From Antedon mediterranea (Eukaryota > Echinodermata > Crinoidea > Comatulida > Antedonidae): a stretch of 64,000 nt of DNA. Below the pieces are notes generated by a model, which worked only from the letters and a program-made list of their open reading frames with translations, did no database searches and was not told the origin of the DNA. Every line of letters begins with the position of its first letter. Positions within the stretch are counted from its first letter, which is position 1. Shown in pieces: positions 37,741 to 64,000 of the stretch. The stretch is from contig NC_092670.1 in assembly GCF_964355755.1 (NCBI RefSeq), positions 36,319,795-36,383,794 on the forward strand. The letters run 5' to 3'. The translations under genes were made by a program, and so were the position numbers.

Positions 37741-40700
37741 TTAGTTACAAACATTGTTTTGTTGGTAGTCATCAAACGCCTTCCGCCACTCAGGTAGATC
37801 ATTATTCTTCCAGTTGTAATAATCATCTCTCCAGAATTTCTCTTGTTCAGGCAGATCAGCTGAAAACAAAAAACAACACCAAACGATCAGCTTAGAAAGA
37901 CCATAAAGAAATAGTTTGTCAAATGACTATTAAGAGTACCACAGTCACAGACTAAAGATAGTCCCCTTTCATGAATAGGGCCCTAGAAATTATCCCATGT
38001 TGTAATCATTCTTTGTTGTTGTTTCTTTGTTGGCAATGTTTTACCTTTTATATACACAGTCAAAAATTGTTGCTATAATTTTATAAAGCACAAAAACTAC
38101 AGTCCGGTCATGATTCAATTAGTTGGCGTGCAATTTCTATATTTATAAAAAACTAATTCATAACTGAAGGTAAACAACGCTACACTACCTGAATATTGTT
38201 CAAGTTTTGGTTCATATGAATTCCAGAAGGCACACTTGTCAGCACGATAAGCTCGATCAGAATATGACATTGTGTTGATATCTAGATATTGCAGTTCTGG
38301 AATGGTGTACTTCGGCCAGTTGACGAGGTCAATGTCAAATGATGGATCTGGTGTCTCACTTCCTCTGGAGTTTGGATCACTAGGTTAAAAAACGTAGCAT
38401 ATGTCTGTCAAATTGTCTTTCTCAACAATAGATACCAGTAGTTGAAAACTAAAATTCTTAATTAACTAAAATTGCTGTCTATGCCTTCATGTGATAATCT
38501 ATTTTATTTAGAGAATTAAACAATACTCAAAGCTTACCCAGTTTTTGCAAAGTTTGTCCAATATCTCACAAATTCAACTGACACGTTGCGATCAACATCA
38601 TTAGGTTGCTCAAACTGGTACATGGAAGCATTAGGCAAAAATGGCAATCCAAACACAAATTGAAGTTCTTCGCCATGACCAGCTCTGAGCCAGTCAAATC
38701 CAACACCCATCGGAATATAAGGGGAGAACACAGAAACTGTTGGAACATGTGTCATAAGATAAACGTAGACATTGTTTCCTGCTGTAGAATGTGCTCGCTG
38801 GACTACATCACTTGGACACAAGAATTGTGAATCTGTGGTCAGTTGAACAGTGGAATTGAAGTAATCTGCATCTGGGTTGTCTGCTGACGACCAATCAGTG
38901 TATTCAAAATCAATAGAATCCGTAATTAGCGGATTTACTGGCTCTTTAAGTAATAATGTTGGGATCAATTGAAGAAACTCAGCCTTTGAAAGGTTTGGAG
39001 TATATGGAGAAGAGTAAACGGGATTGAAAAAAAATAAGTATGTTCCTTCATCCTCATTGGTTCCAACGATGATAGTTGCATTTCGTTTAATCTCTCCATT
39101 TGTTATCAACACTTCTGGACTGTCTTCAAGAAATAGTCCATCCACAACTGGTATTGGCACAACAGTCATCTTTTTAAAATAGAAATAATCAAATGTGTAA
39201 TTAATTAATTGATTCTACAACACATGGTAACTATAGTCTAATTATATAATATTTGACACTGTATGTACAGTACATGTGTGTGTTATCTGCTGTTGAGACC
39301 TCCATGGTCAGATTTTGGGTCATGTAACAACCAAATAATATTTCGCTAAACATAAAGATGATAATAGAAGAGACCAAAATGTACAGTACAGTATTTCATT
39401 ATTATTTAAAATTTAAAATTGTTACAGTAAATAGTAAAAAAGTTGATAGTTTATAATAATCTTACCCCGACAGAAGCATTAAGTATTGCACCAGCATCGA
39501 TCCACTTCATACAGCTTACAAACGCCTTGCTCTCAGTATATTCACAGCCAACTTTCTTTCCAATTTCAATTGTCACTTCTGCTGCCACTTCTCTTTCTAT
39601 ACTAGCCCAAGGACTCAAGGTTGTTCCACTCTGAAATATTCAAGACAGTAAAATCTCAAAAGCTATTATTATTAATTAGGCTGGTTTTTAGAATACATAA
39701 AAATAGTTAGCAAAGAAACTGGGGATGTTTGGTACATTTTTAGGAGAGTTTCCAGTTTTAAGCACCCAGGGTCGGGAGTTGACTATAATAAAGTGTAATT
39801 TAGTGCATAAATAAAATGAAATAAAAATATAAACCTCTAAAATAGCTTGACTGAAATATGTCCAACTTCCCTTTGAAAGTAGATGATAGTCTACACTTGC
39901 TGATCCTGCACTTTCACCAAATATGGTAACACGTGATGGGTCCCCTCCAAATGCTGAAAATTTTTTTTTTTTATATTACAGTAGTTTGTTTAAGAAATGT
40001 ATGTTTTACAAATATTAAGCCCAAACACTGTCTAGAACCTAGATTACAAAACAATACAATACCCCCATTTAAAGAATAAAAAACGTTTTAGGATGAAGAA
40101 TATTTAATTTAATACCTCCTATATGTGAGTTCACCCATTTTAAAGCTTCTTGTTGATCAAATAGTCCCATGTTGCCTGGATAGTCCTCATCATCTGAAAA
40201 GTGAGGTGTATGATTTGAATAAAAAAAAAAACTTGAAATTAAACTAAGTTGTTAAAAGTCCTTTGATACACCTTAAAGGTTAAATATTTCATTTGAAAAA
40301 TTGCTAATATTTATTGCCAACAAAAAAAAAGTCCACAAAATTAAAGGAAACTAAAAGTGTACAATACCAGTTGTAAGAAAGCCAAAGAAGTTCAGTCTGT
40401 AGTTGATAGTTATGATGATGACATCACCAGCGGCAGCTAACGGCATTCCAGAATAAATCTCTAAAGAGGCAGTACCAGTTAGAAATGCACCTCCATGGAT
40501 GAAGACCATTACTGCAGCATTCTCAGGCTGAAATTTAGATTTATTTTTTTCATTTAGTATCTAAAGATATTTCTTAAAGAAGGGTGCGATTTAATATTTT
40601 TTAAACAAGATAGAATCTTAATTTGTTTGGTTTCCGAATTGATAATTAACTAATTGTCTGTGTGTTGTATTATGAATAGCACGACTACTCCACCTGATGT

Positions 40701-41081
40701 TTAAAATAAATGTCAAGTCATTCCTACCTTTGTTTGAGCTGAAAAGATATTCAAGTACAAACAGTCTTCTTTTCCTCCAGCTAGATACGCTGGAGAAGGA
40801 AAATTCAGGCATGATGCACCATATTCTGTTGCATCCAATGTTCCATCCCAAGGTTTTTTGGGTCGTGGCTTCTCAAACCTATATTCACCAACTGGTGGTT
40901 CAGCGAATGGAATACCTTTGTAAACATCAATATTCTTATCAACTTTTAAGTACGAATCTTCTTTAAAATTGATTGTCTCACCAGCAATAACCCCTAAAGT
41001 TGTTGATACTTGTGGAGATTGTGAGAAAACTACAACAGTTATAGAAGAAAAGATCAGCGACTTGACGATTATGGACTCCAT
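37741..41081 (-). CDS. Cholinesterase-like secreted esterase, copy E
   Basis: Eight exons (minus): 40728-41081, 40368-40527, 40116-40193, 39835-39953, 39466-39630, 38538-39169, 38189-38379, 37741-37859. All are GT-AG and in frame, giving 605 residues. Type-B carboxylesterase/cholinesterase family (alpha/beta hydrolase). A signal peptide ([20 protein letters not shown]) predicts secretion. FIHGGAF is the oxyanion hole, [10 protein letters not shown] holds the catalytic Ser, TNEDEGTY the catalytic Glu, and [12 protein letters not shown] the catalytic His. [11 protein letters not shown] follows, as in acetylcholinesterase. The last exon encodes a Trp-rich tail with three Trp and a penultimate Cys, like the T peptide that forms tetramers. 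The Cys-Cys loop before CLYLNIF lacks the choline-binding Trp. Compared with B, the region before the His reads [12 protein letters not shown]. Substrate unknown. Confidence 0.93.
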
Positions 41082-41135
41082 GTTGATTGTACCCTGTTTT
41101 GATGGTAGCTGTTGCTGATTTTGACCTGATTACAT

Positions 41136-41141
41136 TTTATA
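41136..41141 (-). promoter_or_regulatory. TATA-like box of copy E
   Basis: TATAAA on the minus strand about 55 bp upstream of the start codon, in GCGCAATATAAAATG. At the same relative place copy B has CACAATTATATAAAG and copies C and D have AT-rich variants after GGCACAAT. Confidence 0.45.
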
Positions 41142-61906: not shown

Positions 61907-62617
61907 GTTACATACATTTTTAAAATTTAAGGGTCTCCCATTTCCAAAAAAAATGTTTAGTTTGTAAAATTCACATGTGTTAAGCACAAATGATTATGGT
62001 TTTGAACTTCCACTGAAATTCCATGCAATATTACAATTTAGAAAAATAAGTTCTAGAAAAGTAAGGCAAGATATCTCGAAAAGTAAGATTATACCATTCT
62101 CATTGAAGGGGTTTATTTTCATCTCTTGATACACATAAAAACTGAATGTTTTTTTTTGCATATGAACTTGTTTATACTCATGTAGTTGATATATACTTAG
62201 TATTGTATATCAATCATTATGATGTTAACTTCACTTAAAAAATGATCTAAATGTAAAAGTTTGTAAGTTGGCTTTAATTACACAAGAGAAAAGGAATATG
62301 TTTAACAGTACATACTTTATAAACTAAGCCTCAATTTGATTTGCTAGAGATATTACTGAAATTCACAGTTTTTTTAAGCAGGGTACAGTAAGTGAGCTAG
62401 TGAAAATAAAATTATATAATAACCAAAATGTCCCTTTACATACATTTTTTTTCAATTAATAACCTGGTTAGATGCATTCTACAAAATTGGTGCAGTATAT
62501 TAAAAGTAAAGTAATTGTACTTTCTTGCTGTCACAGAATAATCATATTTAAATTGATTTTACATTTATCTAATTAATTTGATAAACATTAATCTTGTGTT
62601 AATTATTTTTAAAAACA

Positions 62618-62888
62618 AATAAGCCTGCATTGTTACTGTATCCTTTATTTTGATGAACAAATTAAAGTCTTTAAATTGATTTTAAAAGAATAGAAAGTTG
62701 GTCAATTTGGGGGGAAAATGGAAATTTGTCCAAAGAGAGGATAGAACTAATTTTTTTTAAAGCAAATAAGGTTGCATTGTACTGTATATCATTTATTTTT
62801 ATGAACAAATAAGTCTTTAAATTAATTTTAAAAGAATAGAAAGTTGGTGAATTTGGGGGAAAAAGTGGAAATTTGTCCAAAGATGTGA
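62618..62888. repeat. Two-copy tandem repeat, about 146-bp period
   Basis: ACAAATAAGNNTGCATTGT, TCTTTAAATTGATTTTAAAA, GAATAGAAAGTTGGTCAATT and GGAAATTTGTCCAAAGA occur twice, at about 62618-62742 and 62763-62888. A 92-codon minus frame here (62671-62949) repeats the same peptide and is judged an artefact. Confidence 0.85.
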
Positions 62889-63180
62889 TGGAACAAAAGT
62901 TTAAAAGAATGTCCACATAAGTACAGAAACATAGGAGGATTTTTCGCACAAAAATAGGTGATGAGATGGATTAAGTTGAGAAAAGTTAAAGTTAAAAGTT
63001 GCACAGAATATAATAAAGCTTTAAATCGTGTTGCCCTTTGCTTCCTACAACCTCTTACCTTATTACCTTATGGTCTTCTACATTTTGTGGGTATATACTG
63101 TAAACTAATGTAAAATATTACTCCCATGCTACCAGACTAACTATCAGCTACCATTAACATTAATATTGTAATTTTATTTT

Positions 63181-64000
63181 TTATTTGCAATCTTTGTTTT
63201 TTTGGTAGTCATCAAAAGCCTTCTGCCACTCAGGTAGATCATTATTCTTCCAGTTGTAATAATCATCTCTCCAAGATTTCTCTTGTTCAGGCAGATCAGC
63301 TGAGAAAATTTAAAATAAAGTGGTAATGATTATCGTAAAGAGGTAAAGTTCACTCTCACGATTAAACATTCTTTCCCTGTGCCATCTCCCAATTTTATAA
63401 GGAGGTAAACTACTGACTCTACACTACCTGAATATTGTTCAAGTTTTGGTTGATATGAATTCCAGAAGGCACACTTGTCAGCACGATAAGCTCGATCAGA
63501 ATATGATATTGTGTTGATATCTAGATATTGCAGTTCTGGAATAGTGTACTTTGGCCAGTTGACGAGGTCGTTGTCAAATGATGGATATGATGTCTCACTT
63601 CCTCTAGAGTTTGGATCACTAGAGGTTTAAACACAAAAAACATGTATTTTCTTAACCATCAATACCACCAGTTGAAACTGAAATTAAAAAGCCTAAGGGC
63701 CATATTTCTCCCATCAACATATTATACCTCAATATAATAGCCTACTTTATGTTTGGAGAATTAACAAAAAAATAAAATTTGTCTTACCCAGTTTTTGCAA
63801 AGTTTGTCCAATATCTCATGAATTCAACTGACACATTGCGGTCAGCATCACTTGGTTGCTCAACCCTGTAAACTGAGGCATTGGCAACAAATGGCAATCC
63901 AAACACAAATTGAATTTCTTCTGTATGACTAGCTCCGAGCCATTCAAATTGAAACCCATATGGATAAGAGAGAGAGGAGAATTGTGAAACTGTTGGAACA
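63181..64000 (-). CDS. Cholinesterase-like esterase, copy A (3' part, cut by the window edge)
   Basis: Last three exons: exon 6 from the edge down to 63788, exon 7 63428-63618, exon 8 63181-63299. Donor and acceptor sites are as in the other copies and all visible frames are open. Exon 6 shows the catalytic His context GASHTEEIQFVFG and the SSLSYPYGFQFEWL loop shared with B and, more loosely, D. Exon 8 encodes the Trp-rich tail and ends ...KDCK, keeping the Cys. The catalytic Ser and Glu lie beyond the window, so integrity is unknown. Confidence 0.88.

Follow-up and report, generated by a model that had tools for sequence, protein, structure and literature searches.

The window analysed here, a 64,000-nucleotide stretch of Antedon mediterranea DNA (C1:36319795-36383794), carries a tandem array of minus-strand esterase genes, each with a separate last exon coding a Trp-rich tail like that of cholinesterases. 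By spliced alignment the array comprises six genes: four lie complete within the window, the fifth is cut by its end and the sixth lies outside. With a probability of roughly 65%, these genes encode secreted, tail-oligomerised serine carboxylesterases that stand near the cholinesterases, lack the choline-binding segment and have diversified in non-choline specificity. Their binding residues mark the array genes as tailed esterases adjoining the cholinesterases and not as cholinesterases themselves, and the tail appears uncoupled from acetylcholine breakdown. Discussions of the tetramerisation tail usually treat it as a cholinesterase feature. In this genome it occurs at 12 esterase loci that lack the choline site (one damaged), alongside three tailed acetylcholinesterase-like genes on C5, so that two traits thought to be coupled come apart. 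The same loci provide naturally occurring tails on which the residues required for assembly could be tested.

A 40-residue tail of the window type, searched against the whole genome (354 Mb, 18 contigs), gives 15 matches (E no higher than 3.8), every one directly 3' of a COesterase gene: six on C1, six on C2 and three on C5, the last being the acetylcholinesterase-like genes. A C2 tail used as the query recovers 13 of the same 15 places. Among PDB entries, the gene 3 tail matches best an acetylcholinesterase tail in isolation, 1vzj (E 0.015), and the next three of the five matches listed are full-length tailed acetylcholinesterases. When tails are shuffled and compared with the C5 tails, 0 of 2000 shuffles reach the observed score for each of the nine tails tested (12 in the family); with the vertebrate tail as reference, 0-9 shuffles of 2000 do. 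Chance composition as the origin of the tail is ruled out by these shuffles together with the genome-wide tail search. The tails carry the Trp-x6-Trp spacing, a third Trp, Phe, Tyr and Cys at the expected exon position. Furthermore, introns at Torpedo residues 480 (phase 2) and 536 (phase 1), the exon limits of Torpedo acetylcholinesterase, are found in all five mapped tailed members of the family, two of them array genes, as well as in both mapped C5 genes; two of the three mapped untailed members of the C2b cluster have the intron at residue 480. Because sequence, intron positions and intron phases all match, the last exon is, on this comparative evidence, truly homologous to the tetramerisation (WAT/T) tail of cholinesterases, and the resemblance proposed in the earlier note is borne out by genome search, introns, PDB match and shuffles alike. 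Modelled alone, the gene 4 tail forms one helix over residues 4-36 in the best single-sequence model (mean pLDDT 88.9; range of five models 63.9-88.9). This model, weak evidence because it was made with no alignment, lends no support to the idea that a proline kink divides the tail into two helices.

The catalytic apparatus is retained and the choline site is not. With residues numbered by alignment to Torpedo acetylcholinesterase, every one of the 22 family rows covering the sites has Ser200 and His440; 21 of the 22 have Glu327 and the other has Asp. The complete triad occurs in 6/6 array genes. The array belongs to the type-B carboxylesterase family (PF00135), gene 1 matching the profile at 454 bits over positions 1-515 of 515. 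The omega loop (Cys67-Cys94) is shortened and the Trp84 segment is missing; Trp84 is found in 0/24 family rows versus 3/3 C5 genes. Similarly, Trp279 is absent from all 22 family rows spanning the site and is retained in the three C5 genes. In every array gene Trp279, Tyr121, Phe288 and Phe290 are substituted, and Asp72 gives way to Ser or Phe in the five genes covering that site. Trp233 is kept in all six, site 330 is occupied by Tyr, Trp or Leu, and the six disulphide Cys sites are present in the five open copies. The short omega loop looks derived, because the loops of the contig-9 carboxylesterase-like gene and of Ces2e, the two sequences compared, are both long. Since Trp84 and the peripheral Trp are absent, choline esters are unlikely to be the preferred substrates of the array enzymes. 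As a description of specificity the word cholinesterase is unsupported, since every copy lacks the Trp84 segment; the name "acetylcholinesterase-tailed esterase" used in the earlier note holds.

The phylogenetic tree was built without the tail and the omega loop from 22 family rows, with six cholinesterases sampled (Torpedo, the 5hq3 chain, mosquito and the three C5 genes). Under an assumed carboxylesterase root, the array copies fall outside the six-member cholinesterase clade, as its sister. Support in the two trees is 99/97 and 100/96 for the cholinesterase clade and 96/92 and 100/99 for the family clade. Two long outgroup branches join in the tree, as flagged by the program, and a third outgroup row (C5:6.42 Mb, with a very long branch) stands next to the family at 85/70 in the first tree and was excluded from the second. 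A tree constrained to unite the family with the C5 genes is worse by 13 log units, a borderline rejection (approximately unbiased test, p 0.0485). The earlier note had left to such a tree the question of whether the copies belong among the cholinesterases; under the assumed root they lie just outside, but chance composition, which it named together with such a placement as refuting, does not explain the tail.

Taken at face value, this topology would mean that the ancestor shared by the two clades already had the tail, which the C2b cluster then lost. The account in PMC3045457 (Pezzementi, Nachon, Chatonnet) describes an unrelated, hydrophobic C-terminus as widespread among invertebrate acetylcholinesterases, and adds that the evolution of C-termini may be independent of that of the catalytic part. 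Because of the latter, tail transfer by exon shuffling instead of common descent is possible. The arrangement bears on whether the tail preceded choline hydrolysis. A tentative extension, which we consider doubtful, is that the WAT/T tail predates choline specificity, was present in the ancestor of the cholinesterases and their sister esterases, and still serves this lineage to build tailed oligomers, perhaps mixed with real acetylcholinesterases or sharing their anchoring partner.

Compared with the T form of vertebrate acetylcholinesterase and butyrylcholinesterase (6euc, 2x8b, 1vzj), the array genes have the same alpha/beta-hydrolase domain, triad, disulphide Cys sites (five open copies) and Trp-rich tail with a near-terminal Cys, and presumably the same position of the separate 3' tail exon. 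They differ in lacking the Trp84 segment, in the substituted peripheral and acyl-pocket aromatics, in the six tandem copies and in a Trp 2-Trp 3 interval longer by one residue. With the C5 genes they share equal Trp spacing in the tail and the place and phase of the last two introns (two mapped), whereas the C5 genes possess Trp84, Asp72, Trp279 and tails above the PF08674 cut-off, and no counterpart of the other five introns of the array. In common with carboxylesterases (Ces2e, 9g73, and the contig-9 gene) is a triad without Trp84; unlike the array genes, carboxylesterases have a long omega loop (two compared), no tail and a separate branch in the tree. Carboxylesterases form tandem multigene clusters, and insect esterase clusters are tandem arrays with detoxification roles and are not known to carry a tetramerisation tail. 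Among literature titles and abstracts, no tailed esterase array without a choline site was found, which is weak evidence of novelty with subscription papers mostly beyond the search; the toxin-like genes as presented in PMC7172023 include one named acetylcholinesterase.

Beyond the array, the genome-wide COesterase search, a lower bound with 84 of 131 candidates scored, gives a family of at least 24 loci: six on C1, one at C2:35.56 Mb, 12 at C2:35.77-35.83 Mb (the C2b cluster), three at C2:38.57-38.59 Mb and two at C2:7.11-7.13 Mb. Half of the 24 loci found, the damaged gene included, are tailed, at four sites. The local expansion of tailed enzymes described in the earlier note is supported, and it is large. 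The three C5 genes (C5:4066321, 8527485 and 15451487; 4.07, 8.53 and 15.45 Mb) are tailed, match cholinesterases strongly and hold the catalytic domain mostly within one long exon. The C2b cluster (C2:35765836-35826856) consists of twelve tandem family loci with no tail match, two of them being two-exon fragments. C2b_11, C2b_13 and C2b_15 are nearly identical, with a two-exon fragment after two of the three, which suggests recent duplication of a two-gene unit. Among the 18 loci not on C1, the aligner flagged two (C2b_8 and C2c_21) for possible frame shifts, which may be artefacts of a distant template.

In the mechanism proposed for the array, an N-terminal signal peptide (judged by eye) would secrete the enzymes, and the tail would act as an amphipathic helix assembling the subunits into dimers or tetramers. 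The Cys near the tail end could form a disulphide, and the Trp/Phe/Tyr face could pack the helices, possibly around a proline-rich anchor. After duplication, the copies may have come to hydrolyse or scavenge a variety of uncharged esters, whether dietary, environmental or derived from endogenous signals, with acetylcholine hydrolysis left to the three C5 genes. Selection was compared in 10 pairs from the five open copies over five gene segments. Whole-gene dN/dS is 0.21-0.40; that of the tail is 0.04-0.28, the lowest of the five segments in all eight pairs with computable dS, although it rests on few changes. In all 10 pairs dN is highest in exon 6. Meanwhile, gorge-lining sites vary more often (16/28) than the whole catalytic domain (158/492) in five paralogues (one-sided P 0.004, one test), with 28 alignable sites out of 31 in a provisional list. 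Such a pattern fits a diversified substrate range combined with a fixed assembly module.

Several observations weigh against this interpretation, beginning with the assumed root and the small base of both the tail dN/dS and the gorge comparison. The PF08674 profile check proposed in the earlier note fell short: two window tails tested alone score 15.4 and 16.6 bits, under the curated cut-off of 25 bits, though PF08674 is the first Pfam match for both. Two C2 tails reach 21.1 and 22.3 bits, two C2c tails are unlisted, and only the C5 tails pass. A PF08674 search of the genome at E 10 lists 13 places, with no array tail among them. The Trp 2-Trp 3 spacing exceeds the vertebrate one by one residue in the array and C5 tails and not in one C2d tail; as an array-specific change the extra residue is ruled out by the three C5 tails. 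A PRiMA profile search for an assembly partner yields four matches, all under the cut-off, and the stretch behind the best one (22.3 bits) reads as proline-rich with stops; PRiMA as the partner was rejected. The proline-rich attachment motif occurs 10 times versus 14 in the reversed control, without excess; six of the 10 hits (four stretches) were read individually. At C1:21614529, a 60-residue frame reads PPPPPLFPPPRPP, presumably resembling the proline-rich motif of ColQ, with no Cys pair, and is only a lead to an anchoring partner. Finally, gene 5 carries Asp in place of Glu199 and also at site 117, in the oxyanion loop; some copies may therefore be less than fully active.

These gene 5 replacements, together with Gln, Leu or Ile at Glu199 in four of the five C2c and C2d relatives, would also suit catalytically weak or non-enzymatic tailed proteins retained for assembly and engaged in binding, scavenging or adhesion, as neuroligins are; the whole triad in all six array genes argues against this, and we regard it as improbable. 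Marginally less probable is that the copies are true cholinesterases with an unusual choline site, hydrolysing choline esters through other gorge aromatics. The best 60 of 163 PDB matches are all acetyl- or butyrylcholinesterases, Trp233 and in part site 330 (Tyr, Trp or Leu) could supply aromatics, and tail and last two introns are common to the acetylcholinesterase-like genes; against it stand the missing Trp84 segment, the substitutions at Trp279, Tyr121, Phe288, Phe290 and Asp72, and a clade outside the cholinesterases sampled. The weakest alternative, a functionless tail carried along by duplication, is consistent with the persistence of the C2b cluster without a tail match and with the lack of a PRiMA partner over the cut-off, but sits poorly with the low tail dN/dS, with tails retained at 12/24 loci on four sites and with the helix model.

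The layout of the array is given in Table 1. The gene models come from a purpose-written spliced aligner. Genes 1, 3, 4, 5 and 6 (5/6 copies) read open with GT/AG splice sites, GT/AG at every modelled intron being a requirement built into the aligner. Gene 2 is damaged by a deletion that fuses exons 1 and 2, with loss of the EDCLYLN segment, and by a frame shift in exon 6. The earlier note had counted five same-strand copies with nearly invariant exon lengths, in an array running off the window: the count is confirmed for 37741-64000, four copies being complete, and the sixth copy was found to the right. Exons of 78, 119, 165 and 191 nt recur in 6/6 copies and that of 160 nt in 5/6, in agreement with the note, to which the damage in gene 2 is a correction. 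The last exon measures 119 nt including the stop in all copies, exon 1 348-354 nt in 5/6 and exon 6 614-635 nt. An independent repeat search of 36000-64000 gives ten families, three with five copies and seven with four, with up to five copies in register. At E 0.001, the family search finds no further C1 place beyond the six copies, a lower bound. Duplicate contigs or uncollapsed haplotypes as the source of the array are ruled out by whole-gene dS of 0.18-0.55.

Table 1. Genes of the esterase array and selected exons, in window coordinates
Feature	Position	Strand	Description
Gene 1	37741-41081	-	8 exons, open, 605 aa; GT/AG at 7/7 introns, stop after tail
Gene 1 exons	40728-41081, 40368-40527, 40116-40193, 39835-39953, 39466-39630, 38538-39169, 38189-38379, 37741-37859	-	
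Gene 1 tail exon	37741-37859	-	WAT/T-type: three Trp, Phe, Tyr, Cys near end
Gene 2	42543-47857	-	damaged; tail exon 42543-42661 still open
Gene 3	49440-55836	-	8 exons, open; intron 3 at 51974-54916; tail exon 49440-49558
Gene 4	57654-60882	-	8 exons, open; tail exon 57654-57772
Gene 5, part within window	63181-64000	-	tail exon 63181-63299, exon 7 63428-63618, part of exon 6
Gene 5, whole	63181-66224	-	window end cuts through gene; complete reading open
Gene 6	72738-76868	-	open; past window end

Beside the gene 2 tail exon (42700-42750) lies a repeated short stretch resembling the 5' end of a tail exon. Intron 3 of gene 3 houses an opposite-direction reverse-transcriptase open reading frame (ORF; PF00078; 52191-54569, +, 792 aa), and a second one occurs at 34966-36408 (+, 480 aa). 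A short ORF at 31532-31918 (-) matches the Prion/Doppel profile weakly, at 18.9 bits against a curated cut-off of 25, probably owing to composition. In addition, a single-exon ORF of 419 aa at 13322-14584 (-) matches the CDK5 activator family at 290.7 bits.

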